42,167 nt of DNA from a virus, in the IMG/VR virus record IMGVR_UViG_3300017971_000445, positions 1-42,167 of that record; one strand, given 5' to 3'. Under the pieces are notes generated by a model, which saw only the letters and a list, made by a program, of their open reading frames with translations, searched no databases and was not told the DNA's origin. This document shows positions 2,083-42,167 of this stretch, piece by piece (the first letter of the stretch is position 1; every line of letters starts with the position of its first letter). The position numbers and the translations under genes are program-made.

Positions 2083-2089
2083 TTCTTCG

Positions 2090-2554: not shown

Positions 2555-2603
2555 ATTAAGCCTCCCGCGCTAATCTCTGACCTGGCAACCCAGGGCAGGG
2601 AAA

Positions 2604-2618: not shown

Positions 2619-2627
2619 TTGTTGTTT

Positions 2628-3828: not shown

Positions 3829-3840
3829 CTTTTTTCCTCC

Positions 3841-3869
3841 TATCCAAAGTGATTGTGAAAACAACACAA
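3841..3869 (-). promoter_or_regulatory. promoter-like repeat element
   Basis: On the minus strand: TTGTGT, then a 17-base spacer ending in CACAATCACTT, then TGGATA. The GGAGG site of the 162-residue gene follows directly. It contains the inverted pair TTGTG/CACAA seven bases apart, like the copies at 8239 and 9725. Confidence 0.5.
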
Positions 3870-3876
3870 AGACACC

Positions 3877-4209: not shown

Positions 4210-4223
4210 GGCATCCTTCCTTT

Positions 4224-4574
4224 CTATTTCGTGCTTCTTTTTTTTAGCAACACCCGGGAGAACGAAGTGCATCCTATGATGTTTTTCTCTTCATCCCTTA
4301 CAGGATTCGGTATCAGAAAATCCCGTCTATCCGGATATGATTGAGCTATGAGGGAGCTCACAATGTAAAACACCCCATGTTTCCTGGAAGGTAATCCCGC
4401 GCAATTAGTGTACGTGTTATCATATATCGGGATAGTATTCCTTCCCAGTTCCACATAACCGGATTTAAATCCTTCACGTTTGAGTCTTGGTGGGTGTTTA
4501 CAAGCTGGCAAGATGATATTACACCCGTTTCTAATGATCCTGACCTTGTGTGGTGTTAAGTTAATCAGTTCCAT
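4224..4574 (-). CDS. phage hypothetical protein of the 'NLTPH' type
   Basis: A 116-residue protein. The opening LINLTPHKVRI, a middle segment GYVELGRNTIP, and the later YIVSSLIA, then RRDFLIPNPVRDEEKNIIGC, match a widespread small phage and bacterial family that begins 'NLTPH.v.i' and contains 'R.D...P...RD..G.iiGC'. I know of no established function. It overlaps the upstream gene by 14 bases and is probably translated with it. Confidence 0.7.
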   Translation of the reverse strand: MELINLTPHKVRIIRNGCNIILPACKHPPRLKREGFKSGYVELGRNTIPIYDNTYTNCAGLPSRKHGVFYIVSSLIAQSYPDRRDFLIPNPVRDEEKNIIGCTSFSRVLLKKRSTK

Positions 4575-5322: not shown

Positions 5323-5368
5323 GGTACTTCTCCTCTCGTTCCTATTTCGTTTATTTCGTTACATCTCT

Positions 5369-5397
5369 AACTCTGAGTGATTGCCAGACACACACAA
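5369..5397 (-). promoter_or_regulatory. promoter-like repeat element, weak copy
   Basis: Minus strand: TTGTGT, a 17-base spacer ending in GCAATCACTC, then AGAGTT. The TTGTGT and CAATCACT parts are conserved, but the -10-like part is poor. It lies about 50 bases before the 253-residue gene. Confidence 0.35.
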
Positions 5398-5404
5398 AGT
5401 TGCT

Positions 5405-7126: not shown

Positions 7127-7159
7127 AATAATTCTCCCTTCAATTTTTTAAATTTTTAA

Positions 7160-7188
7160 ATACAAAAGTGATTGCAATATACCCACAA
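7160..7188 (-). promoter_or_regulatory. promoter-like repeat element
   Basis: Minus strand: TTGTGG, a 17-base spacer ending in GCAATCACTT, then TTGTAT, followed by the AT-rich leader (TTTAAAAATTTAAAAAA) and the ribosome site of the clamp-like gene. Same design as the copies at 8239 and 9725. Confidence 0.5.
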
Positions 7189-7225
7189 AAGTACACATAC
7201 ATACAGCACTGTCACACTGTGCCAC

Positions 7226-7253
7226 ATTGACACAGCATCAATTATGTGTCAAT
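7226..7253. promoter_or_regulatory. 9-base inverted repeat, likely operator
   Basis: ATTGACACA and TGTGTCAAT are perfect inverted arms separated by 10 bases. It sits about 40 bases upstream of the promoter-like element of the clamp-like gene and downstream of the terminator at 7354-7386. Repressor or activator binding is inferred. The rest of this 265-base gap shows only short CACTGT/CACACTGTG echoes. Confidence 0.5.
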
Positions 7254-7353
7254 TTGCACCATTTAGGATATGGGGTTTCTAAGAACGCTATAGATTCGTG
7301 TATCCCTTGGTTTCCTTAAAGAGAAATCTCCATAGCTTTCAATGTGGTTTAGG

Positions 7354-7386
7354 CAAAAAAAGAAAAAGGGGAGTGTTGAACTCCCC
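7354..7386 (-). terminator. intrinsic terminator
   Basis: On the minus strand GGGGAGT and ACTCCCC form a perfect seven-pair stem around a five-base loop, followed directly by TTTTTCTTTTTTT. It begins 5 bases after the stop codon of the 272-residue gene and ends its transcript. Confidence 0.9.
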
Positions 7387-7391
7387 ATATA

Positions 7392-8210
7392 TCAATAACC
7401 TTCACGTTCTTTTTCTATGAGATATTGAGCTTGGTCCCGAAAAAGACTCTCCCATATTTCCAAAAGCAAATCTTCATCAGAACCAGACAGGATCACTTGT
7501 GCGCCATCAGACCAGTTTAAGAACCAGTATTCAACGAGATGAACGGAACAATCCGGATTTACATAAAACCGGAATTCGTCACCCGGACCGCCAGTTGACA
7601 ATTGCCAACGGAAATATCCTTCTCTCTGGTCTGTGAAGGTTCCTGGGGAAACATAATCAAAACAGAGACCGTACTCATTGATATTTCCAAGGTCTTCCTT
7701 GATAGCTTCGAAGATGGTGTCTTTAAGGTCTTCCAAGTCAGGATTGTATTCAAGAATCTGTTGTTTTTCTTCTTCTGTGTCACAAGAAAGGATTTCCTGT
7801 TCCTTGTATTTTTCTTGATATTCCTGCAGCTCCTTTTCTGACAATTCCCCTTCCAAGGTGTCAACATCGTCTGTTTCCACTGCCCACATAAGCCGCAAAT
7901 CGTGAATTGTCCTGTCAAGTTCATCTTGAACGATATCCGCGCATTTTATTTGTTGTTTGTCAGTTACAAGGGGAAGCTGTGAAGATATGAACTCCATCCA
8001 ATCTTCTGTGCTGCAAAGGAAACACTCTTTGGGGTGTGTGTAGTTGAAATCTTTCCAAATCAGTACTTTACCTCGGTTTTCCCCATGAAGATTTTTTCCG
8101 TAAAATACATCTCCTGTAATCCCCGCAACAAATTTCAAAGTCTGTACATTCTTTAAAAATGTACCCTTTTCACCAAAACTCTTGATTTCCTCTTCACTTA
8201 GTTTTTTCAT
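7392..8210 (-). CDS. conserved phage hypothetical protein
   Basis: A 272-residue acidic protein. The C-terminal region GYFRWQLSTGGPGDEFRFY followed by EYWFLNWSDGA is a pattern I recall from phage proteins of unknown function ('YFR.Q.S.GGP.DEFRFY ... EYWFLDW.DGA'). The middle (residues 110-160) is an acidic helical stretch. It has its own promoter-like element (8239-8267) and a strong terminator, so it is a single-gene unit. The ATG is preceded by AAAGGAGAG. Confidence 0.65.
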   Translation of the reverse strand: MKKLSEEEIKSFGEKGTFLKNVQTLKFVAGITGDVFYGKNLHGENRGKVLIWKDFNYTHPKECFLCSTEDWMEFISSQLPLVTDKQQIKCADIVQDELDRTIHDLRLMWAVETDDVDTLEGELSEKELQEYQEKYKEQEILSCDTEEEKQQILEYNPDLEDLKDTIFEAIKEDLGNINEYGLCFDYVSPGTFTDQREGYFRWQLSTGGPGDEFRFYVNPDCSVHLVEYWFLNWSDGAQVILSGSDEDLLLEIWESLFRDQAQYLIEKEREGY

Positions 8211-8238
8211 TTTTAACTCTCCTTTTTTTAAATTTTAA

Positions 8239-8267
8239 ATTCAAAAGTGATTGTGAAATAAACACAA
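8239..8267 (-). promoter_or_regulatory. promoter-like repeat element, best copy
   Basis: Minus strand: TTGTGT, 17-base spacer TTATTTCACAATCACTT, then TTGAAT. TTGTG and CACAA are inverted arms seven bases apart. It is followed by the AT-rich leader TTTAAAATTTAAAAAAAGG and the ATG at 8210. The spacing fits a sigma-70-class promoter, while the conserved spacer suggests a bound regulator. Confidence 0.55.
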
Positions 8268-8310
8268 ACACACAATTACACACACACAAATAAACTGCTT
8301 CCCAAGCACT

Positions 8311-8325
8311 GTACGAAAATCGTAC
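8311..8325. promoter_or_regulatory. perfect palindrome GTACGA-AAA-TCGTAC
   Basis: A six-base perfect inverted repeat with a three-base centre, followed by ACATGT. Related copies lie at 1464-1478 and 10834-10848, all in intergenic DNA. Here it lies about 45 bases upstream of the -35-like hexamer of the 8239-8267 element, so a repressor or activator site for that unit is plausible. Confidence 0.55.
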
Positions 8326-8333
8326 ACATGTCA

Positions 8334-8348
8334 GGGGCAGGAAGCCCC
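8334..8348 (-). repeat. stop-proximal hairpin GGGGC-N5-GCCCC
   Basis: Identical in 15 bases to 2604-2618. It lies 5 bases after the stop codon of the minus-strand gene 8353-8613. The stem is five GC pairs with a TTCCT loop on the transcript strand and no T tract after it. Confidence 0.6.
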
Positions 8349-8352
8349 CCCC

Positions 8353-8613
8353 TTACCCAAAATAGATTTCCACCAGACGGTCAGTTTCTTCCTCATCTGC
8401 CACATCGTCGTTTTTGTGCAAATACGCGAATTGGGATGCTTCCTCTTCACATATTGGGCGTACATCCCAGTCTCCAAATCTCTCTCTGTTTCGGGTCAAA
8501 ACGTAATATTTGCCCTCATATAGATAGAGGGTTTCCATGTAGGGGCTTACGGGATCATCGCTGCCCACAAACCCACAAATCTCGTGACCGTCGTCGATTA
8601 ATTTAGTTTTCAT
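8353..8613 (-). CDS. small acidic hypothetical protein
   Basis: An 86-residue acidic protein, unrecognised. It starts at an ATG with the standard leader of this block (AAAGGAGATATTAAAA). The segment ETLYLYEGKYYVLTRNRERF looks like beta strands, and the C-terminus is Glu/Asp-rich. It is followed by the repeated hairpin 8334-8348. Confidence 0.6.
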   Translation of the reverse strand: MKTKLIDDGHEICGFVGSDDPVSPYMETLYLYEGKYYVLTRNRERFGDWDVRPICEEEASQFAYLHKNDDVADEEETDRLVEIYFG

Positions 8614-8751
8614 TTTTAATATCTCCTTTTTTTAAATTTTTAAATATAAAATTGTGTGGAAACAACGAAAGCATTTGTTCTTGTGTTTCATACATTTTTA
8701 ACAATCTCCCTTCTTTATTTTTATATTTGGTTACACTTTGGAACCAAACAT

Positions 8752-8806
8752 CAAAAAGAAAAAGGGAGCTATCCCTTATTCGCTAATAAAACAAAACAAG
8801 CTCCCT
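8752..8806 (-). terminator. intrinsic terminator with long loop
   Basis: On the minus strand AGGGAGCT and AGCTCCCT form an eight-pair stem across a 28-base loop, followed by TTTTTCTTTTT. The stem begins inside the last codons of the 57-residue gene, so the terminator overlaps coding sequence. The remaining bases up to 8613 hold only AT-rich leader. Confidence 0.7.
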
Positions 8807-8956
8807 GGAATTGTCAAGGTTGACATGACGCTCCCCTTTTCGGATTGCGTCTAAGATGCCCTCTTTGTGATCCTCAAACACCTCGCGGAAAATACACGGG
8901 ATGAGGGTTTTTTCGCCCTTAAACCGTTTATAGATTTCGCACAGTCTAACACTCAT
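8783..8956 (-). CDS. 57-residue hypothetical protein
   Basis: A short reading frame starting MSVRLCEIYKRFKGEK and ending NSRELVLFY. Its ATG is preceded by GGGAGGAAATAAAC, a strong ribosome site, and its stop lies inside the terminator at 8752-8806. Basic N-terminus and mixed helical character; no family recognised. The good ribosome site and matching terminator are the reasons for calling it real. Confidence 0.6.
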   Translation of the reverse strand: MSVRLCEIYKRFKGEKTLIPCIFREVFEDHKEGILDAIRKGERHVNLDNSRELVLFY

Positions 8957-8989
8957 GTTTATTTCCTCCCTTCGTTATCTCGCTTTAAC

Positions 8990-9691
8990 TTATGCATATC
9001 CTATACCAAAGCATCTTTTTAGATAATTTTCCACTTCCCCGGCTATTCGGCTTTTCCAGTTTTGCCACATATCCCCATCGATGTAAAGCAGCTCAACAAA
9101 TGTGCGTATTCGCCTTTGGTACAACACAGACAAAAGAAATTGTGTGGAAACAACTTGTTTCTTGATGCATCGTTTGAGATAACGCCTTAAACGTCCTTTT
9201 TCCCCTTTATCCAGGGGAATCTCATAATAATATGATTCCATCTCCTCTTCTTTTTCGCCTTGAGGAAATTTGTCATACTGTTTGATGACATTACAATATT
9301 GCTTGATCAGGGTTTTGATCTCGTCTTTTTCCCTGTCGTTTTTTCGTGGGTTTAAAACGTTTCCTTCCCGGTCAATCCTTATTCCATCGTAAAAGATTGA
9401 TTCCGGTCCGGTTTTGTTTCCGTTCTTGTTCCATACATACCAGATTCCCTGTTTTTGTTGGATTATTACCCGAGTTTGAAATCTGTTGATCCTATCCTTG
9501 GTTGTGGGTGTGTACCAGTCTCCAGTATTCAATGTCATAATACCGGTTTTCTTATTGACGGAAATGACATCCGTTTCATGGAGACGAATACACTCCTTTC
9601 TTAGCGTTTTATACCAAATGGTATTATTCGCCACAAATTTGGATTTAATGGGGTTTAATTCCCCTAAGATTTCGCTTTTTCGTTTTTTCAT
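8990..9691 (-). CDS. hypothetical protein, basic
   Basis: A 233-residue Lys/Arg-rich protein, unrecognised. The frame stays open to 9796, but the ATG at 9691 carries the block's standard leader (AAAGGAGATATTAAAA), and the longer version would run through a promoter-like element, so 9691 is chosen. Features: an N-terminal KKRKSEI start, a central beta-rich stretch (WYVWNKNGNKTG), and a C-terminal basic helical half (KGRLRRYLKRCIKKQ). Nucleic-acid binding is possible from charge alone. The 57-residue gene follows after 33 bases. Confidence 0.6.
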   Translation of the reverse strand: MKKRKSEILGELNPIKSKFVANNTIWYKTLRKECIRLHETDVISVNKKTGIMTLNTGDWYTPTTKDRINRFQTRVIIQQKQGIWYVWNKNGNKTGPESIFYDGIRIDREGNVLNPRKNDREKDEIKTLIKQYCNVIKQYDKFPQGEKEEEMESYYYEIPLDKGEKGRLRRYLKRCIKKQVVSTQFLLSVLYQRRIRTFVELLYIDGDMWQNWKSRIAGEVENYLKRCFGIGYA

Positions 9692-9724
9692 TTTTAATAT
9701 CTCCTTTCGTTTTTTAAATTTTAA

Positions 9725-9753
9725 ATTCAAAAGTGATTGTGATAGTAGCACAA
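9725..9753 (-). promoter_or_regulatory. promoter-like repeat element
   Basis: Minus strand: TTGTGC, a 17-base spacer ending in CACAATCACTT, then TTGAAT, followed by the AT-rich leader and the ATG at 9691. It is nearly identical in its right half to the copy at 8239-8267. Confidence 0.55.
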
Positions 9754-9770
9754 AGGCATACTCAACAAGC

Positions 9771-10094
9771 TCACTCATCGCTAATTGAAACGGCATCTAA
9801 AAATTTATCCCAAGCATCATCGCCATAGCAATCGATTGCCATAGCAATGAACTCATAACGCGTATCGCCGATGTCGTCGTCAAAATCGTCAATATCGTTA
9901 ATAGTATCTACCAGGACGTCATCCGCATCGCCATAACCCGAAAACCCCTGGGTTTTGGCGTTGCATGTATCATCAGCCCGATGCCAGTAAACATCGCAAC
10001 CGTAACCGGTATCACCTCGTTTGTGGTCAAACCAGTCCCAAATAGCACCGAAATACTGAGACAGTAGCTCGATGGTTTTGTTTTTTTTATTCAT
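9771..10094 (-). CDS. very acidic small protein
   Basis: A 107-residue protein starting MNKKNKTIELL, with GAGGAGATTTATC before the ATG; a longer open frame to 10124 lacks a ribosome site. It is unusually rich in Asp (for example NDIDDFDDDIGD, residues about 66-77) and could mimic DNA charge, as several phage anti-host proteins do. That is inference from composition only. Aromatic residues are concentrated in the first 40 residues (YFGAIWDWFDHKRGD). No family recognised. Confidence 0.6.
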   Translation of the reverse strand: MNKKNKTIELLSQYFGAIWDWFDHKRGDTGYGCDVYWHRADDTCNAKTQGFSGYGDADDVLVDTINDIDDFDDDIGDTRYEFIAMAIDCYGDDAWDKFLDAVSISDE

Positions 10095-10147
10095 GATAAA
10101 TCTCCTCGTGATATAATTCTGCATTTCTTTACTGAATCTCTACAATC

Positions 10148-10366
10148 CTAGTAAACCATAACCTTGAGATCAGGTGTGATGCCGGTCCTTGTACCATTGG
10201 GCAAGATTGCATCATCCGTGATCCCTAACTCCCCACTGCAATCACAATCCATAGACCCACACAGTGTGAGTTTCAACTTCTTCGCTTGTCCAGGCGATAT
10301 GGTATTCCCCCGAACCATAATTGTGCATTTTGATTTGTGATACCGGTTTTCAAACGTTACTTTCAT
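10148..10366 (-). CDS. small hypothetical protein
   Basis: A 72-residue, mildly basic protein with four Cys, three of them clustered (CGSMDCDCSG). Its ATG has the block's standard leader GAGGAGATATTAAAA. It is the outermost gene of the minus-strand block, next to the divergent control region. A TTGTGT-containing, weaker version of the promoter repeat lies at 10384-10412. Function unknown; metal binding by the Cys cluster is possible. Confidence 0.55.
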   Translation of the reverse strand: MKVTFENRYHKSKCTIMVRGNTISPGQAKKLKLTLCGSMDCDCSGELGITDDAILPNGTRTGITPDLKVMVY

Positions 10367-10471
10367 TTTTAATATCTCCTCTCATCTATTTAATTTGACC
10401 AAAACAACACAATAACAATCACACAACGCACCACACTTGTCAAGCTCTGGATACGTTTTTTTTCATTTATT

Positions 10472-10506
10472 TGTACGTTTACATCACGTACATACAAGAT
10501 ATTGTA
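10472..10506. promoter_or_regulatory. two adjoining inverted repeats
   Basis: TGTACG and CGTACA are inverted arms nine bases apart, directly followed by TACAA-GATA-TTGTA. The second has the same arms as the TACAACATCTTGTA sites at 15062-15207, suggesting the same protein may bind both places. Confidence 0.45.
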
Positions 10507-10681
10507 CACACTGGTTATGTATGTACTATATGTACTGTATGTGGATAAAATAAATACATGCACAAGACAAGGTAATTCAACATTGTGTGTGTTTCATGCA
10601 TGATTGCACAGTGTGATATTTTAACTATGCGAGGAATTATACAAACTTATTAAGACTTGCCTTTAGTTGTAGTTTGGCTTT

Positions 10682-10697
10682 GTGCGAAAATCCGCAC
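10682..10697. promoter_or_regulatory. GTGCGAAAAT-type inverted repeat (pair with 10913-10928)
   Basis: GTGCGAAAATCCGCAC here and, in inverse orientation, GTGCCTATTTTCGCAC at 10913-10928. Both are preceded by GGCTTTGTGC-like sequence. Two facing sites about 230 bases apart could support looping. Binding protein unknown. Confidence 0.4.
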
Positions 10698-10698
10698 G

Positions 10699-10719
10699 AT
10701 TGCACAATAATTGTGCAAT
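10699..10719. promoter_or_regulatory. 21-base palindrome, NtrC-like enhancer candidate
   Basis: Arms ATTGCACAAT and ATTGTGCAAT around a single A. The core has TGCAC and GTGCA at the spacing of known NtrC sites (TGCACC-N5-GGTGCA), differing at the inner bases. It lies about 280 bases upstream of the sigma-54-like promoter, a distance workable for enhancer-binding activators. The palindrome is certain; the NtrC-like role is inference. Confidence 0.5.
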
Positions 10720-10833
10720 ATACCTTGTATTACTAGGTATGCCATATTTTGACGTTTTTCAATGGGTTTTAGTGTACACGATTGATATCCCTGGATATCT
10801 GCATCATACAAATCTTATGCACTGGGGGGGAGT

Positions 10834-10848
10834 GTACGAATTTCGGAC
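10834..10848. promoter_or_regulatory. inverted repeat, GTACGA-N3-TCGTAC type
   Basis: GTACGAATTTCGGAC, one mismatch from a perfect inverted repeat; third member of the set with 1464-1478 and 8311-8325. Confidence 0.45.
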
Positions 10849-10992
10849 AGTTGGTGTAAACATAAGCGATGCTTGCCCTCACGAATTTTTCAGGTATTTT
10901 CCATCGGGCTTTGTGCCTATTTTCGCACATCCTTAAAATCTCGCCTCCCGATAACGCAGAAATGCATCATTTTGTTGCCCTTTTTCCTACTT

Positions 10993-11010
10993 CTGGCATG
11001 ATAATTGCGT
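10993..11010 (+). promoter_or_regulatory. sigma-54-like (-24/-12) promoter
   Basis: CTGGCATGATAATTGCGT contains GG and GC exactly ten bases apart and matches the RpoN consensus TGGCACG-N4-TTGC with one mismatch. The start point would be near 11020, just before the small membrane gene and the 711-residue gene. A GATAAT within it could alternatively serve as a sigma-70 -10, but the only TTGCCC upstream is 19 bases away. Sigma-54 promoters are rare in phages. Confidence 0.5.
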
Positions 11011-11069
11011 AATACCTACCATCGTGTAGCAAACATACAAAACCCCCGAGGGAAGGAGAACCGGCAGTC

Positions 11070-11204
11070 GTGTATATTCGCCAATCGTCCATCAATGAGA
11101 ATCGTAAGGACTTGGAGTGTTCGTTATTTTACCTCCTGGCTGCCGTTCTCTTCCTTCTCCTAGTGTGTCTCTCGATTGCTATTCCTGAAAATCCATTTGT
11201 ATAG
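11070..11204 (+). CDS. 44-residue single-pass membrane peptide
   Basis: Starts at GTG (residues read MYIRQSSINENRKDLE). Residues about 20-39 form one hydrophobic segment (LFYLLAAVLFLLLVCLSIAI), then a short PENPFV tail. GGAAGGAG lies about 11 bases upstream of the GTG. It is the first frame after the sigma-54-like promoter. An inverted repeat (GAGAACCGGCAG with CTGCCGTTCTC, about 11056-11152) could fold the leader and bury the GTG. Such peptides can be holin-like or inhibitory, but no function can be assigned. Confidence 0.5.
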   Translation: MYIRQSSINENRKDLECSLFYLLAAVLFLLLVCLSIAIPENPFV

Positions 11205-11359: not shown

Positions 11360-13495
11360 ATGTATGACATGATTATGGGGGGTAAATACCTCCGGATTGG
11401 GTGGAGTGCGAAGCCAGATGGGGCTTGGGAAGGGAGAATATTGGAACAGATGTGCCGTGGTGAGGCAGCTATTCCTGATGGTTTGTTTGAATTCTCCGTA
11501 CCTGAGAACCCTATAAGCATACGATCTGTAAATGCTCCCCAGATTACCAAATTTGTCCTCTACATACGAGGTAGAGACAAGAATCGGGATAATAGTATTC
11601 TCCGCATCCAACCTAGGGAAAGCTCTGATATTTCCCACGTTGCCAAACTTGTGAGTGCGTACAATCAGGCAATGGCCACTATTGAAACCCGTTCCGAAGA
11701 GATCGTGGTAGGTGGTGAATACCTCAAGATATCCTGGAAACGCTTGCCCTGTACATCCCGGGAAGATAAATGCTACGTCGGCAGGGTAATTGACCAGACA
11801 TACCGTTGGGAGGACTTTTACCCAATAGCAAAGAAAGGACATAAGTGGTATTTTAATCCCAAGATACAAACTTCTGCGGTTGGTGATGTAATAGTACACA
11901 TGAAATCTGTTGACCTTCCCTCCATCGAATCCATATCAAAAACCCGGATACTCTTTGATGTACGGGGAAAACACGTTGATCGTGACGACGATGAATTTCA
12001 GGCAACCGACCACGAATTCTGTATAATTAACGAGGCAATCAATAAGTATAACAGCAATATGGAACAGTACTTCGGTGGGTACGTGGGTAAGGAATGTGGT
12101 GGCAAGTACCTAAAGATTATGTGGGATCAGCGTGTCCCCGGCAGGTACTGTGGTGTAATTCAGCAGCAGATGTACGTTCGTTCCAATTTTAACAAACCTC
12201 TCAAGCTTCGTGAACCCGATATTGATACAAACGTCTACTTTAGCGAAACCATGTACAAGTGTAGCAGTATATGTATTTGTTCCGGCAGATCACCAGGTGT
12301 TCGTAAAGATGAAAACGGTGACATTATCCTCGACGTGATCCGTGAAGATGACGTATCCGACGTATCCGCGAGTGAGTACACATTCGATGCCCCCGAATAC
12401 CTTATCCCTTTTCTATCCGAAGCTATCGAACAGTATAACAAGTACATGGCGAAGGAGTTGGAAAGGGAGGAGGAAGTTGTTGGTGGTGATTATCTGAAGG
12501 TCAAATTCACCCCCATACCCAATTCTGTTGATTGGGAAGCTGTAATATTGAAGCAAAAGCACAGAATGGGTAGCTTTTATCCCCCCAGCATATCCAATTC
12601 GCTTGAGTTCGTAGCATCTAATGGGTACTCCTTGCGATCATGTATCTGGCCTGCCGTGTCCCAAGGGGAGAAGCTTTTCTATGTTCGTGGCAATTCAACC
12701 GGTAGTGATTATGATGAACTGTTCGTTCCCAACATTATGTACCCATTTATGAAAGCAGCTATTGAGGAGTACAACCAGAAAATGCTCGAATACGAGCGCA
12801 CACACAAGGAGAAAGTTGTAGTAGGCGGTAAGTGCCTCAAGATCGAATTTACCCGAGAAGCCAGTCCCGATGCTTGGGATGGCAAGGTATTATGTATGGA
12901 TGTTCCGGATACTATCAGGTACAAAAACTTTACCGTTCATATGACAAATGGCGATACTTACACCACCTATGCAAATCTTGAGCCTTGCCAAACAATCACC
13001 TGGGCATGGTATAATCGCAAAATGGAGCCCGATTTAAAAGGTTTCCCAGGAACGGGGAAGGCATTCTTCCTCAAGCTCCCCACTTCCGCACTTGAGTCAC
13101 CTTTGTTCAAACTCCCGGCTTCTTATCTCTCCGGTGTCGTCCTCCTTATCCGACGTTATAACGAGTATGTGGAGGCAGAAATTGCTAGGTTGGAAAAAGA
13201 AAGGGAGAGGAAGAGCAGTAATGAGGAGGAGGAAGTTACTTTGTCTGATATAAAAGGTGTATTCGCGTACCTTGAACATGCGGAGGCAGAAATTGCCAGG
13301 TCGGAAAAAGAAAAGGCAGAGAAAGAAAAGAGGGAGAAGGAAGCCAAACGGGAAGAGGTTTTGGATCGGCTTAGGTACGCTGAAGCGGTATATGACTTCC
13401 CGGCAGACCCCTTTCTCCTTTGTAATCCAGAAGTCATTAAATATGCGTGTAAGACATGGGTGAAAGTTTGTAAGGAGGCGAAAAATACAGAATGA
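11360..13495 (+). CDS. 711-residue protein with five internal repeats and charged tail
   Basis: Not a family I recognise. Five repeats of 100-125 residues occur at about 7-106, 117-234, 247-363, 375-475 and 489-606. Each opens with 'GG.YLKI.(W/F)' (GGKYLRIGW, GGEYLKISW, GGKYLKIMW, GGDYLKVKF, GGKCLKIEF) and closes with a helix ending in 'YN..M' (AYNQAM, KYNSNM, QYNKYM, EYNQKM, RYNEYV). A 'LF.VRG...D.D' strand is shared by repeats 1, 2 and 4. A Glu/Lys-rich probable coiled coil follows (605-672) with a doubled AEAEIAR unit, then a Cys-containing tail. AGGAGG precedes the ATG. As the first large gene after the control region it may be an early, highly expressed protein. Confidence 0.8.
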   Translation: MYDMIMGGKYLRIGWSAKPDGAWEGRILEQMCRGEAAIPDGLFEFSVPENPISIRSVNAPQITKFVLYIRGRDKNRDNSILRIQPRESSDISHVAKLVSAYNQAMATIETRSEEIVVGGEYLKISWKRLPCTSREDKCYVGRVIDQTYRWEDFYPIAKKGHKWYFNPKIQTSAVGDVIVHMKSVDLPSIESISKTRILFDVRGKHVDRDDDEFQATDHEFCIINEAINKYNSNMEQYFGGYVGKECGGKYLKIMWDQRVPGRYCGVIQQQMYVRSNFNKPLKLREPDIDTNVYFSETMYKCSSICICSGRSPGVRKDENGDIILDVIREDDVSDVSASEYTFDAPEYLIPFLSEAIEQYNKYMAKELEREEEVVGGDYLKVKFTPIPNSVDWEAVILKQKHRMGSFYPPSISNSLEFVASNGYSLRSCIWPAVSQGEKLFYVRGNSTGSDYDELFVPNIMYPFMKAAIEEYNQKMLEYERTHKEKVVVGGKCLKIEFTREASPDAWDGKVLCMDVPDTIRYKNFTVHMTNGDTYTTYANLEPCQTITWAWYNRKMEPDLKGFPGTGKAFFLKLPTSALESPLFKLPASYLSGVVLLIRRYNEYVEAEIARLEKERERKSSNEEEEVTLSDIKGVFAYLEHAEAEIARSEKEKAEKEKREKEAKREEVLDRLRYAEAVYDFPADPFLLCNPEVIKYACKTWVKVCKEAKNTE

Positions 13496-15378: not shown

Positions 15379-15551
15379 TGTTTTTACTCGGTAAAGCTCA
15401 CGAATTAACCAAACAGCTCGAATCCGACCTCCCAAAGACAGAGAAGAGCCGTATTCGTTACCACCTTAGCCGTATTCAGGATGTTCTAAATGGCAAAATA
15501 ACAGAGGAGCAGTATAACAGGGGCAGAGGTCGCCCGAGGAAGGAGCAGTAA
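15378..15551 (+). CDS. small basic protein with AT-hook-like C-terminus
   Basis: A 57-residue protein starting at GTG, with GGGGGAG close upstream. Residues 5-40 are helical and charged, and the end RGRGRPRKEQ matches the AT-hook core (GRP flanked by Arg/Lys), which binds the minor groove of AT-rich DNA. It begins right after an AT-alternating tract, suggesting the tract or its surroundings as a target. The stop TAA overlaps the next ATG (TAATG). Function is inferred from motif only. Confidence 0.6.
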   Translation: MFLLGKAHELTKQLESDLPKTEKSRIRYHLSRIQDVLNGKITEEQYNRGRGRPRKEQ

Positions 15552-16084
15552 TGGCAAGTAGTAAAAAACAAGGTAAAAAGGGGGATTATAACCCCGATGA
15601 GTTCGTAGTGCCCGCTACGGATGCCCGTGGAAATAGCGAACGTGTTAACCTCCGTATGTCCCCTATGTACCTGGCTGCCATGCAGGATATACTCCAATCC
15701 AGGCTTTTCCCGTATAGAACCATACAGGATGTAATACGGGATGCTGTGAAAAGACACCTCCGCTACCTAAGCACCTTGGACACTTCTATAACATCCCTTA
15801 TGGGACAGATACAGGCTGTAGACAACATAGTCTGTGCCAACATTCGTCAAATAGAGTTCATGCGTAGCGTAGAGGACATGAAGAAGACCGTAGCATCCCT
15901 CCTGAAAGCAGGAGCCAACGAGGAAGCTGTATCTGTCCTAGCTAACGTAAAACACGAGGTGGAGAAGATAAAGAATAAGTTCTTCCGTGAACACTTCCTG
16001 GCTGCGATACAGCCGTTGTATGAAAAAGCCTCCAAGTCTTCCAAGTCCGTGAAGGTTGGCAAGAAAAGAAAGGTTAAGGAATAG
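15551..16084 (+). CDS. ribbon-helix-helix DNA-binding protein
   Basis: A 177-residue protein. Residues 27-73 (ERVNLRMSPMYLAAMQDILQ, then TIQDVIRDAVKRHL) fit a ribbon-helix-helix domain: strand, helix, 'P' turn, helix. The rest is long helices (residues 85-160), probably an oligomerisation part, with a very basic tail (KKRKVKE). RHH proteins bind short palindromes cooperatively, and the TACAACATCTTGTA array lies just upstream, so a replication-initiation, partition or repressor role is plausible. It overlaps the previous stop (TAATG). Confidence 0.7.
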   Translation: MASSKKQGKKGDYNPDEFVVPATDARGNSERVNLRMSPMYLAAMQDILQSRLFPYRTIQDVIRDAVKRHLRYLSTLDTSITSLMGQIQAVDNIVCANIRQIEFMRSVEDMKKTVASLLKAGANEEAVSVLANVKHEVEKIKNKFFREHFLAAIQPLYEKASKSSKSVKVGKKRKVKE

Positions 16085-16085
16085 T

Positions 16086-17639
16086 ATGAGGTTGAAGATA
16101 TGGAATGGGGAAACAGTTATAGTACCATTGCGACCGCAGGAACTAGACATATCGGACAAGTTTCAAGAGTGGAGAGCCAGCCAGTGGGAAGCTATCCATG
16201 ATGCTCTTACGTCCAAAAAACGTTTCGTGGTGCAGTCTCAACCAACCGGCTCTGGCAAATCATTAACTTATTACACCATAGCCAAGGTATTAGGGAAGCG
16301 TGTGTGCATCTTAACCTCCACCAAAGCCCTACAAGACCAAATAGCCAAAGATTTCCCAGTAGCAGATATTCGTGGTCAAAATGCCTACAAGTGCCTCCTC
16401 ACTGGCGACTCTGCCAACTATGGACCCTGTCGAATGGGGTATGATTGCCCTCGTACCCGTACCTGCCCATACATACGCCAATACCGGGCAGCTCTTAAAG
16501 CCAGCATAGTTCTCACAAACTACTCCTATTTCATAACCATTAATAGGTTTGGCAGGGGTCTTGGCAAGTTCGATTTGCTTGTATGTGACGAAGCGCATAA
16601 CATACATACACAATTGTGCAACGCAGCAACAATATCTATCCGATCCGATCTCCTATCCACCCCGCCAGATGAGTCCGATCTGACCGCGTGGGCTTTGTAT
16701 GAGGGGGGCAAGATAACAAATAGGATAGATAGATTACATTCCGAGTTCAACCAGGATACGACTGATTTTGATAAACCCCTGTTGCGTGAGATATCAGATC
16801 TCAAAATAGCTGAGCGGGGGTTGGAAACAGTACGTTCCCACGCGGATGACTGGTTACTTGAGAAATCTAAAGGCTCCTGCGTATTTACACCCGTTTGGGC
16901 TGGTGAGTTGTCCGAGGAGCTTCTTTTTTCGGGAATACCCAAAGTTATAACCATGTCAGCCAATATCTGCCAGAAGTCCTTATCTCTCATAGGTATCAAA
17001 GATTACGACTATTTCTCATACAAGCACACATTCCCCTTACAAAACAGGCTGGTGTATCATATTCCTACAACTCGTGTTGATTTCCGCATGAGTAGTGCTC
17101 AATTTGACACATATATGAAGCGTGTGGATGAGATAATCGAGTCACGATTGGACAGGAAGGGCATAATACACGGGGTTTCTTACAAACGTTGCCAGCAAAT
17201 CATGTCCAAATCTCGTTTTAAAAAGTACATGATTACCCATTACAAAAACAATCTTGCAGAGGTTGTGGAGCGGTTTAAAAACTCAACAGCTCCCAGTATC
17301 CTGATATCCCCATCAATTGTGGAGGGGTACGATTTCCCAGGCGACCAGTGTTATTGGCAAATAGTGGCAAAAGTGCCATTCCCTGATACTCGTGGAAAGC
17401 TAATGGCGTTGAGGAAGAAGAGCGATCCAGAGTACCCAAACTACATCGCAATGCAAAAATTCGTCCAAGCGTGTGGTCGTGGTGTCCGTTCCCAGGATGA
17501 TGTTTGTGAAACGTTCATACTAGACGATCACATGTTTTGGTTTTTCCGAAGATTCCAAGAATTTGCACCAGATTGGTTCTATTTAACAACAATTCGGTAC
17601 AATCCCACACCAGTTGGCATAAAAATTGCTGTAAAATAG
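16086..17639 (+). CDS. DinG/XPD-like superfamily 2 helicase with Fe-S site
   Basis: A 517-residue helicase. Walker A TGSGKS (54-59), DEAH (168-171) and a motif VI-type QACGRGVRS near the end mark superfamily 2. Between Walker A and DEAH lie Cys 103, 115, 121 and 127, the Fe-S cluster layout of the XPD/DinG family, which unwinds DNA 5' to 3'. The ATG at 16086 follows AAGGA; an upstream in-frame start at 16056 would overlap the previous gene. It probably opens DNA for phage replication or recombination and precedes the replication genes in the same direction. Confidence 0.88.
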   Translation: MRLKIWNGETVIVPLRPQELDISDKFQEWRASQWEAIHDALTSKKRFVVQSQPTGSGKSLTYYTIAKVLGKRVCILTSTKALQDQIAKDFPVADIRGQNAYKCLLTGDSANYGPCRMGYDCPRTRTCPYIRQYRAALKASIVLTNYSYFITINRFGRGLGKFDLLVCDEAHNIHTQLCNAATISIRSDLLSTPPDESDLTAWALYEGGKITNRIDRLHSEFNQDTTDFDKPLLREISDLKIAERGLETVRSHADDWLLEKSKGSCVFTPVWAGELSEELLFSGIPKVITMSANICQKSLSLIGIKDYDYFSYKHTFPLQNRLVYHIPTTRVDFRMSSAQFDTYMKRVDEIIESRLDRKGIIHGVSYKRCQQIMSKSRFKKYMITHYKNNLAEVVERFKNSTAPSILISPSIVEGYDFPGDQCYWQIVAKVPFPDTRGKLMALRKKSDPEYPNYIAMQKFVQACGRGVRSQDDVCETFILDDHMFWFFRRFQEFAPDWFYLTTIRYNPTPVGIKIAVK

Positions 17640-17668
17640 CATGATGACTAAATTAAGGAGGAAAAGGT

Positions 17669-18379
17669 ATGACAGAGGGTAACAAGGTTCCTTTGAATCA
17701 GTTTAAGCGATCCGGGTTTCTGGATGGTGTGGAGGCTACCATCACAAATGCCAGATTCGTGTTCTTCGCGTTCCCTACTGCGGGAAAGCAAGCGTGCTTA
17801 GAGGTCACGTTTGTTCCGAAGCAGGAAATTCGTAATCTCAGACCCCAGATGTACAAGGTTGGCGACCCTGCATCGTTCGTGCCATCGGAGAACGGAGATG
17901 AACTTATCTCCCCGACAGGCGCACAAATCCACGAAAACACGAAGTTCGGAGTTTTTATTACCTCTCTCTACGATGCAGGGTTTGATGGAGAGCTTAAGAC
18001 AATCTCCGAAATCAACGATCTTAAAGTACGCTTGAAATCCGTTCCCAATTCCCAGATTTGGGGCGGAAGCGGAAACACGCAGATGAGCAAAGGCAACACG
18101 ATCCTTATTGATGAAATTCTTGGTGATGATAGCGCGCCTACAAAGGGTGGTGGGGAAGTTTCCAAAGTCGAAGACGTTGCCAAGCTGACCATCCTTGAAA
18201 TCCTTGAAGCATCCGGAAAGCCGATGAAGAAATCTCATGTGGTGCTCAAGGCAAATAAGGCTGAGTTTGCGTCGCCAGCAGAGCGCAATTTAGTACTCGA
18301 TCTTGTTGGCTCTGACGAGTTCCTTGCCAGTTCGGATGAGTGGAAGTTTGAAAACGGCATTCTCTCCCTGGAGGAATAA
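17669..18379 (+). CDS. possible ssDNA-binding/recombination accessory protein
   Basis: A 236-residue protein, not firmly identified. The N-terminal half (residues 15-150) is beta-rich and may be an OB-type fold. The C-terminal 60 residues (ILEILEASGKPMKKSHVVLK, then DEWKFENGILSL) look like a winged helix, and a flexible TKGGGEV linker joins them. Its place directly before a Sak4-like ATPase suggests the single-strand-binding partner often encoded there. AGGAGG precedes the ATG. A plain structural or regulatory role cannot be excluded. Confidence 0.5.
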   Translation: MTEGNKVPLNQFKRSGFLDGVEATITNARFVFFAFPTAGKQACLEVTFVPKQEIRNLRPQMYKVGDPASFVPSENGDELISPTGAQIHENTKFGVFITSLYDAGFDGELKTISEINDLKVRLKSVPNSQIWGGSGNTQMSKGNTILIDEILGDDSAPTKGGGEVSKVEDVAKLTILEILEASGKPMKKSHVVLKANKAEFASPAERNLVLDLVGSDEFLASSDEWKFENGILSLEE

Positions 18380-18441
18380 TTCCTCCTATTCTCGTCCTAC
18401 TTTGTTGGTTTGCATAGTGGTGGTTCAATCCTATGCGCTTG

Positions 18442-18472
18442 GGGAGGGAGTTATCCCTTTCAGCTCCCTCCC
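18442..18472 (+). terminator. strong hairpin between replication genes
   Basis: GGGAGGGAG and CTCCCTCCC form a perfect nine-pair stem with a 13-base loop, followed by a pyrimidine run (ACTCTTTCT) without a clean T tract. It probably attenuates transcription or stabilises the upstream mRNA 3' end. Confidence 0.55.
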
Positions 18473-18495
18473 ACTCTTTCTACTAGGAGATTTTA

Positions 18496-19317
18496 ATGGA
18501 TGAAAAGAAACTTGCGTCTGTCGGGTTTGAGAAGACAAAACCCGACACCGAAAGAGCTTGGGTAATTTCAATATCCGGGGAAACATCTTCGGGCAAGACA
18601 ACGTTCGCGCTTACCGCGCCAAAACCCCACGCCTTTTTTAACTTCGACCATGGGGAAGCCAGAGCCATTTCAGGTATCAAAGACAAACTTGACGTTGATA
18701 AGGATGGCAACATTGACGGTTTATACATAAAAACCTTCTACCCGCCCTCTGTGAAAGTCTCCAGCAGGTTCTCTGGTAATGTAAAAAGCCCGCTACGTGA
18801 GGACAGTGGAGGTGTTCAGGAAGACAATATCAAGAATTTTGTTCCTCTGTATAGGGATTTTAACGAGGCGTACAATGCCGTTCTTTGTTCGGGGTTAAAA
18901 TATGCAACTATTGATGATGGTGGTGATCTCTGGGAAATTGTTCGCCTCGCCTACCTGGGTCAAGTTACCGAGGTGATGCCACAACACTACGTGGAGGTGA
19001 ATGCAGTGTGGAAATCCATTATTCAACGTGCCCGGTATCGTGGCGTGAATCTAATAATTACCCACAAACTGAAAGATGTCTATGTCGGAAATAGTTGCAC
19101 AGGGGAACGCACGTTGGATGGGTTTTCCAAAGACAACTTCCTGTCAGATATTTCCCTGCTTACAAGCTGGGATAAGAAAAAAAAACAACCCGAAATCCTC
19201 ATCACGAAGTGTGGACCCAACAAAGAGCTCGAGGGAATAACGATCTCGGGCGACATGTGCACATATACCATGCTTAAAGCACTCATTCTCGACTGTGACC
19301 CGGAGGACGTTACCTAA
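18496..19317 (+). CDS. Sak4-like RecA-fold ATPase
   Basis: A 273-residue protein. Walker A GETSSGKT (28-35) and a Walker B strand YATIDDGG (136-143), with ILITKCGPN near the end, fit the phage Sak4/RecA-core ATPases (also annotated AAA, 'phage nucleotide-binding protein'). These proteins anneal or exchange strands together with a phage SSB. It is followed by an ERCC4-type nuclease starting on its stop codon (TAATG), consistent with a recombination-dependent replication set. Confidence 0.75.
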   Translation: MDEKKLASVGFEKTKPDTERAWVISISGETSSGKTTFALTAPKPHAFFNFDHGEARAISGIKDKLDVDKDGNIDGLYIKTFYPPSVKVSSRFSGNVKSPLREDSGGVQEDNIKNFVPLYRDFNEAYNAVLCSGLKYATIDDGGDLWEIVRLAYLGQVTEVMPQHYVEVNAVWKSIIQRARYRGVNLIITHKLKDVYVGNSCTGERTLDGFSKDNFLSDISLLTSWDKKKKQPEILITKCGPNKELEGITISGDMCTYTMLKALILDCDPEDVT

Positions 19318-20039
19318 TGCCACTTTATATAGATAACCGAATGCATGAAAAGACCAAACTATTTCCACTATTAAAAGACATCGCCGAATTAGCCAGGTTG
19401 GAGTTCGGCGATGTTTCCTTTTCTGGCAATGGCGAGGATAACGCACGAATACTGATCGGTGTGGAGCGTAAAACCCTCCCTGACTTCCTCCACTCATTTA
19501 CTAGTGGCAGACTCGCTGGACACCAGATACCTGGGATGCTCAATTCCTACAATTACGTGTATTTGATAGTAGAGGGTATTTGGCGACCCAATCCAAAATC
19601 CGGAACAATGCAGGTAAAGCGTGGAAAGGCTTGGGCAGACTTGCGATTGGGCAAACGAAAGTACTCTTACCGCGAGTTCGTATGTGCCCTGAACACCCTT
19701 ACAATAATCTCAAACGTACACGTAGTAACAACACACTCTATTCGCCAAACAGCTCTATACATCCGTAGCCTTATCCACTGGTGGAATTCAAAGAAGTACA
19801 ACGAGCATAGAGCTCACTTGGCTTTTCAGAATACCCCGCCGATAACCTACAACAAGCCCGGTCTGACTCGTAGGCTGGCAAAAGAGCTGCCAGGAATTGG
19901 GTGGAAACGCTCTGCTGAAGTAGCCAAAGTCTTTAAAACACCCAGGGGTCTAATAAACTCAGAATTGTCACAATGGCTAGGTATCCCCGGAATCGGAAAG
20001 TCCATAGCCTCCAAGGTAATGGAGGAAATTAGTCAATGA
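19317..20039 (+). CDS. ERCC4/XPF-type endonuclease with helix-hairpin-helix
   Basis: A 240-residue protein. GVERKTLPDF (48-57) is the ERK-X3-D active-site motif of the XPF/MUS81/Hef nuclease fold, preceded by an IDNR-type strand (5-8). The C-terminus carries two helix-hairpin-helix segments: LAKELPGIGWKRSAEV and LGIPGIGKSIASKV. Such proteins cut branched DNA (flaps, forks, Holliday-like joints). Here it is one polypeptide with catalytic and DNA-binding parts. It is coupled to the ATPase and overlaps the polymerase start by four bases, so it likely resolves intermediates of phage replication. Confidence 0.82.
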   Translation: MPLYIDNRMHEKTKLFPLLKDIAELARLEFGDVSFSGNGEDNARILIGVERKTLPDFLHSFTSGRLAGHQIPGMLNSYNYVYLIVEGIWRPNPKSGTMQVKRGKAWADLRLGKRKYSYREFVCALNTLTIISNVHVVTTHSIRQTALYIRSLIHWWNSKKYNEHRAHLAFQNTPPITYNKPGLTRRLAKELPGIGWKRSAEVAKVFKTPRGLINSELSQWLGIPGIGKSIASKVMEEISQ

Positions 20040-22756
20040 CGTCGTGGATTGATGAAAACTGTGCTTTGTGTGATCTTTGCAAGAATAGAAAGAACGTAGT
20101 CCCTGGGAAATGGGCTAGGGGTTCGGGTATACTTCCAGAAGGAATGGATACTTTTGTTGTTGGGGAGGCTCCAGGCGTCAACGAAGATTTAACCGGTGAG
20201 TGTTTTGTTGGGAAAACAGGAGAAGAGTTATTCAGTAATTATCTGAAGCAGGGTGGAATAGACCCGAACACATGTTATTTCACGAACATAGTCAAGTGCC
20301 TCCCCACTTCCCAAGATAAAAAACCGAAGAAAGAGCACATAGATGCTTGCAAACCTTATCTATGGAAAGAACTCGAATCCGGATTGCCTCGTTACATAAT
20401 AGCGATGGGTAGCACAGCATCCAAGTTCTTCCTCGGCGCAAACCACAATGTCGAACGTGCGCATGGCAATGCGTTCAATGTGGAGATTCCCCTGCCCTCT
20501 GGAAAGCTCCAATGCGCGGTAATAGTCACGTACCACCCAGCAGCCGGTCTACACACCACCTCCATTATGCAGGAGATATACGAAGATTTTGTGTTCGCTG
20601 GAAAGGTAATTCGTGACGGGTTGCTTGAAAGGAGCACTATACCCGTTGACCGGTATGCCAAGGAGGAAAATTATCGTAAAATAACTACAGTGTCCGAATT
20701 AGAAGACGTGTTCAGACCAGATATACCCAAAATAGCTTTGGATACGGAAACGGTATCTGGAGAACCATACTGCTTATCGTTTTCCCAACATCCTGGAGAG
20801 GCATTTGTTATCTTCCAAAGTAATTCAGACGTATTATCCGCACTTAATCAAAATATCTTAGAAAACAGCTTGATTAGTATTTTGCACAATGCTACATTTG
20901 ACTTGCCAGTTTTGGAAAAGATGGGTGTGAAAATAGCTAATTTTGTTGATACTATGTCAATGGCATACTTACTTGGCAACAAACCCAAGAAGTTAAAGCT
21001 ATTAGCATATCGCATAGCTGGTATGCACATGCACATGTACAGTGATATATTGAAAATGGGCGATGCGAGAAGGATACAAAGATACCTGCTTGATGCTTGT
21101 CGCGAAGAGTGGAAAGACGCCCCTATAAAAATATCAGGGTGGGAACCGCGGTCCAATGTCAAAGAAAAAACCGTAGTCAAGCGTATGGAGCGTTTGGACT
21201 CCGTTGGAATGCTTACAAAGGACGTGCTTGACCGGATGATAAGCAAAGGCGAGGTTCCACGGGTAACACAAGCGCGAAATATAGGCAACAAAGCTGAGGC
21301 ATACTTTATAAAATCTTGTGATAATCGCGAGAATCCATACTCGTTGTGGAATAGCACAAAACCCGAAGATGGTCGGGAGGAGGTGGAAAAGGTTCTCGGG
21401 AAGATGCCAGAACCAAGTCTGCTCGATGTTCCCGAAGACGTAGTTATCCGCTATAGCGCACGCGATGCTGATGCCACATTTAGAATTTACCCAATACTCG
21501 CGGAGGAGATACGAGAGTTTGGTTTAGAGGACACGCTCTATAGGGACATGGGGACAATCCCCATGATTTGTGATATGGAGCAGAGAGGAATCCTAGTAGA
21601 CTTGAACCATTTTAAGCATCTTTCCGAGAAATACGGGGAGGAGCTTGCCAGTATCGAGGCAGAAATTAACAAGATAGCTGGATGGGATGTCAATGTCCGT
21701 TCTACTAAAGATTTACAACAGCTCCTATTTGTGGATTTGGGATTAGAACAGGTAAAAACAACAAACAAGGGGAACATATCCACAGATATGGAAACACTTA
21801 CAACATTACAAGGTTCACACAGTGTTGTAGATTTGTTATTACAGTACAGAAAGCTTCACAAGCTAAAGTCCACCTACATAGACTCAATACCAAAACACGC
21901 GGATTCGCGTAGCAGAGTTCATAGCAGGTTCTCAATAACGCGAACTGAAACTGGCAGGCTTGCCTCCTCGGAACCCAACCAACAAAACCAACCAAAGCGC
22001 GGGGAGGGGGCAAAAGACATACGTAGGGGATACATAGCTCCCCCCGATTACTCTTTCGTATCTGCCGACTATTCGCAGATAGAGCTTCGTGTCCTGGCTC
22101 ATATCTCAAAAGACCCGTCTCTATTACAGGCGTTTAACAACAATGAGGATGTCCACAACAAAACAGCTTGTGACATATTCGGAGTCTCTTCCCCAACGAA
22201 ATCCCAACGACGCGTAGCAAAGACCGTAAACTTTGGTGTTGTTTATTGTATACAACCAGACGGGTTGCAAAGGAAGCTATTTGAAATAGGGATAGATTGG
22301 GATGTGGATAAGTGTTCGGAATTTATAGCGGACTATTTCAAACTGCGCCCAGCTGTCAAAAAATATATTGAGTCTACTAAGGCTTATGCTAAACGAAACA
22401 AGCTGGTACGTGATATATTTGGCAGAATCCGATACATACCGGAAGTTCGTAGCGCACATTATTGGATACGGGAAGCTGGTCTTCGTCAAGCAGTAAACAC
22501 TCGCATACAGTCATCTGCACAAGGCATTATCAAAGAGGCAATGAGGCGAATGATACCCGCCTACAGGGGGCTTGGGAACGTTCACCCCCTGATACAAATA
22601 CACGACGATTTACTATTTGAGGTCGAGGATAGGCTACTAAGGGAATTCATATCGAAGCTATCCCACACCATGAGTATGGCTGTGACGTTGGTAGTGCCAA
22701 CACCCGTCTCGGTAGAGGTTGGTAAGAATTGGGGAGATATGGAGGAATGGAAATGA
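20036..22756 (+). CDS. uracil-DNA glycosylase (family 4)-DNA polymerase I fusion
   Basis: A 906-residue protein. Residues 1-200 are a family 4 uracil-DNA glycosylase: Fe-S Cys 12, 15, 88 and 105, motif GEAPG with ED (43-51), and HPAA (167-170). Residues 230-490 are a 3'-5' exonuclease with complete acidic motifs (D236-x-E238, N285/D289, Y473/D477) and a long insert between the last two. Residues 500-906 are the family A polymerase: motif A DYSQIELR (678-685), motif B with R725, K729, F733 and Y737, motif C HDD (856-858; usually HDE). No 5'-3' exonuclease domain is present. I recall a similar fusion in SPO1-type phage polymerases. It is the phage replicase. Confidence 0.93.
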   Translation: MTSWIDENCALCDLCKNRKNVVPGKWARGSGILPEGMDTFVVGEAPGVNEDLTGECFVGKTGEELFSNYLKQGGIDPNTCYFTNIVKCLPTSQDKKPKKEHIDACKPYLWKELESGLPRYIIAMGSTASKFFLGANHNVERAHGNAFNVEIPLPSGKLQCAVIVTYHPAAGLHTTSIMQEIYEDFVFAGKVIRDGLLERSTIPVDRYAKEENYRKITTVSELEDVFRPDIPKIALDTETVSGEPYCLSFSQHPGEAFVIFQSNSDVLSALNQNILENSLISILHNATFDLPVLEKMGVKIANFVDTMSMAYLLGNKPKKLKLLAYRIAGMHMHMYSDILKMGDARRIQRYLLDACREEWKDAPIKISGWEPRSNVKEKTVVKRMERLDSVGMLTKDVLDRMISKGEVPRVTQARNIGNKAEAYFIKSCDNRENPYSLWNSTKPEDGREEVEKVLGKMPEPSLLDVPEDVVIRYSARDADATFRIYPILAEEIREFGLEDTLYRDMGTIPMICDMEQRGILVDLNHFKHLSEKYGEELASIEAEINKIAGWDVNVRSTKDLQQLLFVDLGLEQVKTTNKGNISTDMETLTTLQGSHSVVDLLLQYRKLHKLKSTYIDSIPKHADSRSRVHSRFSITRTETGRLASSEPNQQNQPKRGEGAKDIRRGYIAPPDYSFVSADYSQIELRVLAHISKDPSLLQAFNNNEDVHNKTACDIFGVSSPTKSQRRVAKTVNFGVVYCIQPDGLQRKLFEIGIDWDVDKCSEFIADYFKLRPAVKKYIESTKAYAKRNKLVRDIFGRIRYIPEVRSAHYWIREAGLRQAVNTRIQSSAQGIIKEAMRRMIPAYRGLGNVHPLIQIHDDLLFEVEDRLLREFISKLSHTMSMAVTLVVPTPVSVEVGKNWGDMEEWK

Positions 22757-41241: not shown

Positions 41242-41274
41242 GGGGGTCAAATAAGGATATAGCAAGCAAGAATC

Positions 41275-42167
41275 GTGCCAGTTAGTACAACATTTGCAGG
41301 AAATATACTAAATCAGGACAAGGTTGCTCTACCAAGACTTACTGGTGGCCAGTCCAATTTTGATGGATATCCTGGTATTTTTGGTCTGTTTGTTCCAGAT
41401 TCATTTGTATCTGGGTATTGTTCAGCCTGCTGCAAGTGCGCTTCTCATGACGCAGCTATTATGGTTGGTGTTAAAGTAGGTAAGCACGCTCCCGAGGCTG
41501 TATTTTACCCAGAATACAGATATACGCATGAAGATTTGTTATATCTGCATAATGCGCTTTATCTGACATATTATATTTATTATGGGGTTGAGTATGACCT
41601 TTTATACAACTCAGGGTGGACAGCTGACAATATTTCTCAACAACGAACATACACCATCGTAGACACGTCTTTGTCTGATCCGGTATTGAGCTCCAACCAG
41701 CTTCGGCTTCGGGGTGATAACCCGAGGCATTTGCAAACGGGCGACTCACAGCCTAACCCAGATTGGTATGGGAATGGGGGTGACGAGGGTAATCGCCTAA
41801 TTACGGTAGACTCATTCCACTGCTTGCCAATCGGTTCTATGGGAGTATTTCATTTCCCTTCCGTACTTAGACTAAAGCAGCTTCCATGCTTGACAAAGGT
41901 TGAGGATGTGACGGCGGTTGGTGATGGCGAATACGAGTTTATAGCTACTCTGTCAAATGCCTGTTCGTATGCAAAGTACCCCGATGATCAGAAATACGGT
42001 GACGTGTCTGAGTACAGTATAACATTCTATTATTATAAAACGACCCCAATGGATTGGCCTGACATACAGCCATCTCCGAATACTGGGTGGACTCGCGAGA
42101 CAGTGAGTTTAGAATCTGGAGATTTGGTAGAGGGCGTCTATACAATATCGGATAGAATATTGTATCC
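41275..42167 (+). CDS. tail or receptor-binding protein, truncated by window end
   Basis: An open frame from GTG at 41275 to the window end, at least 297 residues, with no stop. It begins MPVSTTFAGNILNQDKVALP. It is Tyr-, Asp- and Gly-rich with a Cys cluster near residue 50 (CSACCKC) and a YLTYYIYYGVEYDLLY stretch. The ribosome site is weak: AAGGA lies about 17 bases before the GTG. Location after the hub and small tail genes suggests a minor tail or receptor-binding protein. The family is not recognised. Confidence 0.6.
   Translation, partial: MPVSTTFAGNILNQDKVALPRLTGGQSNFDGYPGIFGLFVPDSFVSGYCSACCKCASHDAAIMVGVKVGKHAPEAVFYPEYRYTHEDLLYLHNALYLTYYIYYGVEYDLLYNSGWTADNISQQRTYTIVDTSLSDPVLSSNQLRLRGDNPRHLQTGDSQPNPDWYGNGGDEGNRLITVDSFHCLPIGSMGVFHFPSVLRLKQLPCLTKVEDVTAVGDGEYEFIATLSNACSYAKYPDDQKYGDVSEYSITFYYYKTTPMDWPDIQPSPNTGWTRETVSLESGDLVEGVYTISDRILY

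Follow-up and report, generated by a model that had tools for sequence, protein, structure and literature searches.

Likely sigma-54-type promoters before the rightward genes of a tailed phage, with a candidate enhancer palindrome upstream

The window analysed here, a whole linear IMG/VR virus record of 42,167 bases, derives from a tailed phage with terminase, portal and head proteins and likely carries sigma-54-type promoters in front of its rightward genes; judging from sequence, we put the probability of this reading at about 0.72. The earlier note had proposed one such promoter, and the proposal is well supported: the core motif is in statistical excess, it is laid out before ribosome-binding sites, and perfect -24/-12 promoters in the same layout are present in three relatives. 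We infer that host RNA polymerase with RpoN would transcribe the rightward genes, at least partly, from these promoters, promoter 1 serving an operon beginning at 11070 or 11360 and promoter 2 serving the gene at 17669 and probably also the downstream genes for recombination and replication. A host NtrC-family activator, responding to some host signal, would bind the palindrome and loop to promoter 1.

Gene layout and sigma-54-type cores of the window

Leftward genes occupy 1495-10366; the rightward block begins at 11070 or 11360 and extends as far as the record end (Table 1). Between the two blocks lies a control region of 0.7 kb, the longest non-coding stretch of the window; the earlier description of it as the only long one is wrong, since others are found at 976-1494 (around a tRNA), 8614-8989 and 7127-7391. 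An 84-codon frame (10682-10936) spans the palindrome, and its coding score is like that of non-coding DNA. The left half of the control region holds an AT-rich cluster of GTACATA/TATGTAC repeats (10465-10550), a possible operator or origin, and the left end of the record (1-528) gives a weak match to a DarG antitoxin model (2e-05, far below the cut-off). Among the rightward products, the 711-aa protein contains about five repeats of a GGxYLKIxW-type unit with no family recognised, and 20036-22756 encodes a fusion of a family A DNA polymerase with a uracil-DNA-glycosylase-like domain (UDG-PolA), which has counterparts in many IMG/VR contigs at 30-37% identity.

Table 1. Coordinates of the features discussed (aa, amino acids)
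Feature	Position	Strand	Basis or remark
Non-coding control region separating the two gene blocks	10367..11069	.	ORF map, coding fraction
Perfect 21-bp palindrome ATTGCACAATAATTGTGCAAT, candidate enhancer site of an NtrC-family protein	10699..10719	.	dyad
Putative sigma-54-type promoter 1, CTGGCATG-ATAA-TTGCG; predicted start near 11020	10993..11009	+	motif
Possible 44-aa hydrophobic (membrane) peptide, AAGGAG, GTG start	11070..11204	+	coding score ambiguous
First clear gene of the rightward block, encoding 711 aa with internal repeats; function not recognised	11360..13495	+	
Replication/recombination module, gene order common to comparison relatives	15551..22756	+	
Putative sigma-54-type promoter 2, TTGGCATA-AAAA-TTGCT, at helicase gene end; predicted start near 17641	17614..17630	+	motif
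Gene behind promoter 2, 236 aa, SD TAAGGAGG	17669..18379	+	heads Sak4-like, nuclease, UDG-PolA genes
Third exact core TGGCACGATTCTTGC, running antisense to structural genes, with its role unexplained	41266..41280	-	motif

The sequence CTGGCATGATAATTGCGT is present at 10993-11010, exactly where the earlier note had placed it. Within it, TGGCATGATAATTGC (10994-11008) shows the single mismatch to TGGCACG-N4-TTGC that had been claimed and none to the degenerate TGGCAYR-N4-TTGC. The GG (-24) and GC (-12) pairs, with ten bases between them in a TGGCAY-N5-TTGC context, are found at 10994 and again at 17615, a site beyond the earlier finding. Exact TGGCAYRN4TTGC occurs three times in the window, at 10994(+), 17615(+) and 41280(-), against 0.08-0.16 occurrences expected under Markov models of orders 1-4 and 0.074 expected when synonymous codons are shuffled within genes and bases outside genes; none of 1000 such shuffles reaches three. 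The same pattern is absent from 1.35 Mb of other viral loci. A weight matrix score of at least 14 is attained by 5 sites in the window versus 0.68 expected (0/1000 shuffles), and minus-strand matrix matches are also in excess; because this matrix only approximates the published sigma-54 consensus, the exact-core counts carry the argument. Relative to the consensus TGGCAC-N5-7-TTGCT (PMC12316311), promoter 1 has T instead of C in its -24 box and carries a G following TTGC.

Both plus-strand cores end 39-61 nt upstream of an SD sequence and start codon, an arrangement (SD and start at +35 to +80) that follows about 5% of plus-strand positions in the window. The 10994 core ends 61 nt before the GTG, with its AAGGAG, of the possible 44-aa peptide, and the 17615 core ends 39 nt before the ATG of the gene at 17669, with the SD sequence of that gene in between.

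Sigma-70-like sites in the control region show no excess over shuffled expectation, and the sole plus-strand one (10478) is weak. These observations make it unlikely that transcription of the rightward genes begins at a sigma-70 or phage-specific promoter that escaped recognition, with the sigma-54 sites secondary or unused, even though the first genes of a phage normally need an immediately active promoter and a divergent promoter could hide in a 1-kb region.

Partial conservation of the putative promoters and their layout in distant relatives

No close relatives of the window phage were found by single-protein scans, by megablast or in the collections searched, all phages recovered being distant. 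Relatives at 31-40% identity were recovered by a helicase-alignment scan and share the gene order 15551, helicase, 17669, Sak4-like, nuclease and UDG-PolA genes. The search of related genomes that the earlier note had called for came out partly in its favour: exact cores occur in the whole records of 7 of the 35 relatives (15 sites, as against 4 for the reversed pattern), among them G004, G006 and G009, but are absent from the records of the other 28.

In G004, G006 and G009, helicase relatives with 35-40% amino acid identity, all seven sites (two, three and two, respectively) read YTGGCACGN4TTGCA, lie in the direction of the helicase and are followed at +54 to +73 by an SD sequence and start codon (7/7, against a background of 6-10%). 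The core search left the first Y and last A free and permitted C/T and A/G inside, and at the positions left free the seven sites match the sigma-54 consensus. They are not located at the same gene as the sites of the window, and the site before the 17669 homologue shows no conservation in four loci compared (L008, L009, L012 and L023). The remaining eight sites, in G008, G024, G019 and G027, are unlike the sense promoters.

Taken with the window, nine of nine sense sites precede an SD sequence and start codon. This regularity, the Markov and codon-shuffle models and the consensus agreement at free positions make it quite improbable that the -24/-12 look-alikes reflect chance or another DNA-binding motif, an explanation that would nevertheless accommodate the excess of minus-strand matrix matches and the sites at 41280(-) and in G008 and G024, which run antisense to structural genes and are not explained as promoters.

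The antisense cores of the window, G008 and G024 (L261, L262) lie in gaps between structural genes and point against those genes. The 15-mer of the third core is identical at G008:C1:30807-30821 (-), and the G024 cores adjoin a repeated AGTGAATCA element. In the stretches read of MW202545, Caulobacter RW and Roseobacter CRP-6 (related terminase), neither a sigma-54 core nor an NtrC site was found.

The first promoters of two relatives are preceded, 50-220 bp upstream, by dyad arrays, GGAAC/GTTCC in G006 (L258) and TGTCTC/GAGACA in G004 (L260); no dyads lie upstream of their later promoters, and G009 has no such dyad. The window follows a similar plan, with a dyad upstream of promoter 1 and none upstream of promoter 2. 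Judged by sequence, the arrays of G004 and G006 are candidate activator sites of proteins not recognised, and different dyad sequences would be expected of phages that rely on different host activators. Alternatively, the dyads of the window, G004 and G006 could be repressor operators.

The palindrome and its candidate activator

The palindrome is confirmed. It is perfect (10+1+10), its half-sites are spaced as TGCAC-N7-GTGCA, and 274 bp separate its end from the -24 element downstream. It is unique in the window, and dyads with 10-bp arms are uncommon: when 300 random 350-bp windows were drawn from the record, 7 had an arm of that length, some of them probably containing this same dyad. Opening of every sigma-54 promoter requires an ATP-driven enhancer-binding protein (EBP). 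Neither a sigma-54 activator domain (PF00158) nor a sigma-54 DNA-binding domain (PF04552) was detected in the phage records examined, which are possibly incomplete, so the activator should be the host's, and a host EBP acting through the palindrome is a reasonable reading. The earlier idea that the phage depends on host RpoN and a host activator thus gains from the lack of detectable phage genes for either function, whereas the identity of the activator as NtrC is only plausible.

In rhizobia, TGC-N11-GCA is the NtrC motif, and NtrC binds the dusB promoter (PMC10746234). The palindrome conforms to this dyad, with inner bases AA/TT in place of YA-N3-TR (2 mismatches). NtrC sites usually number two or more and lie about 50-200 bp upstream; here one good site lies about 300 bp upstream, a further match at 10963 having 3 mismatches, and no IHF site was found between the palindrome and promoter 1. 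The 19-mer of the palindrome has 12 matches in about 85,000 genomes, of which only one speaks for NtrC, a copy about 100 bp before dusB-ntrB-ntrC in an alphaproteobacterial contig (L096). Because the motif fits and the 19-mer precedes these genes, NtrC is a fair and plausible candidate for the protein at the palindrome.

Other matches were set aside. A Gemmatimonadetes genome (L098, L101-L105) contains six TTGCACAAWWWTTGTGCAA copies, most of them accompanied, at a distance of about 31 bp, by another half-like dyad. These tandem elements, which belong either to a regulator not recognised or to a repeat element, have no sigma-54 promoter near them. For this reason an EBP gene beside one of the copies (L090) was not accepted as proof. 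The match in L091 looks like a terminator hairpin, and the others have no clear context. The palindrome was also rejected as a shared phage operator, with no exact matches in viral contigs. The NtrC-like match TGCACCAGATTGGTTCT at 17564, 34 bp before promoter 2, is explained by coding, as it encodes residues A-P-D-W-F within the FAPxWF motif of the helicase; P505, W507 and F508 of this motif do not vary among relatives.

The more specific proposal, that host NtrC itself is the activator and that rightward transcription rises under host nitrogen shortage, is doubtful. The motif fit (PMC10746234), the dusB-ntrB-ntrC copy and the occurrence of NtrC and sigma-54 promoters in other phages agree with it, but the inner bases, the single distant site, the Gemmatimonadetes elements, the coding nature of the second match and the other dyads that relatives carry at the corresponding place do not. 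A separate possibility, which we consider less likely than not, is that a repressor, from phage or host, uses the palindrome as its operator, in which case the palindrome would be unrelated to the promoter and perhaps control the leftward genes. Phage control regions usually contain repressor operators, the palindrome sits between divergent gene blocks, and the region holds further dyads besides the GTACATA repeats; against this, the window has one perfect copy and no related ones, no adjoining repressor was recognised among the leftward proteins tested, and the plan of a dyad before the first promoter recurs in G004 and G006.

Apparent NtrC-site promoters in other phages, and known systems

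The pattern TGCAC-N7-GTGCA, 60-90 bases, TGGCAYRN4TTGC matches 54 viral contigs, where about three chance matches are expected by a rough estimate that assumes a total of about 50 billion bases. Seven matches (L186 and six alike), lying in or beside coding DNA and having GC-rich half-sites, were dropped. The 47 contigs kept (L187-L239 except L196, L198, L216, L217, L222 and L238) span several unrelated lineages and show canonical NtrC sites, often tandem, an exact sigma-54 core and phage genes downstream. The inner bases, which the search did not constrain, agree with the NtrC consensus: of 33 distinct site-promoter pairs, 24 have YA and 25 have TR. Of 29 distinct promoters, 18 have another NtrC site, not selected for by the search, within 250 bp; among 1394 other windows taken from these contigs there is none. 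From the site pattern, the inner bases and the second sites, it appears that NtrC and sigma-54 promoters are present in phages whose lineages are unrelated to the window.

Bacteria normally use sigma-54 promoters for nitrogen and stress genes, and such promoters stay closed until a signal-responsive ATPase opens them. Given sigma-54-type promoters in the window phage, near-perfect versions in some distant relatives and versions with full nitrogen-regulator sites in unrelated environmental phages, the physiological state of the host may turn certain stages of the life cycle of some phages on or off. In its broadest form, which we hold to be slightly on the probable side, host sigma-54 and EBPs would be a recurring main developmental switch in several unrelated phage lineages, placed before replication or terminase/structural operons, the activator sites being of NtrC type in certain phages and of a different type in the rest, and virion production would be gated by host nitrogen or stress state. 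If so, phage development would be conditional on a host signal without a phage-encoded switch, and the rpoN or ntrC status of the host would decide phage productivity.

Among known systems, RpoN/NtrC promoters of the glnA/glnK type share with promoter 1 the TGGCA-N6-TTGC core, a 40-60 nt leader and an upstream TGCAC-N7-GTGCA palindrome; they differ in that the site of the window stands in a phage control region, its single palindrome is ~300 bp away and its activator is putative. The alphaproteobacterial dusB-ntrB-ntrC promoter, at which NtrC binding and autoregulation are documented (PMC10746234), resembles the window in the TGC-N11-GCA motif and, in L096, the same 19-bp dyad upstream. However, L096 shows no sigma-54 core beside the dyad, and NtrC is reported as a repressor at that promoter. 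Published links between phages and sigma-54 transcription include Xp10 protein P7, a phage protein that inhibits sigma-54 polymerase (PMC5053324), and the Gifsy-1 prophage, which activates RtcR and thereby triggers a host sigma-54 operon (PMC9879122), but the promoters concerned there are host promoters. The open literature yielded no phage whose own control promoters had been shown to be sigma-54 dependent; most subscription papers lay outside this search, and the negative is weak evidence of novelty.

Several of the unrelated contigs (L188, L199, L203, L207, L209 and others) resemble the window in carrying an NtrC-type dyad and an exact sigma-54 core before phage genes. They differ from it in the number of sites (1-5), in the YA/TR inner bases, in the distance from site to promoter (50-100 bp in most cases), and in that some of their promoters face terminase genes: L199, L207 and L209 each have the promoter in a gap between divergent genes, directed at a small-terminase-like gene and a large terminase.
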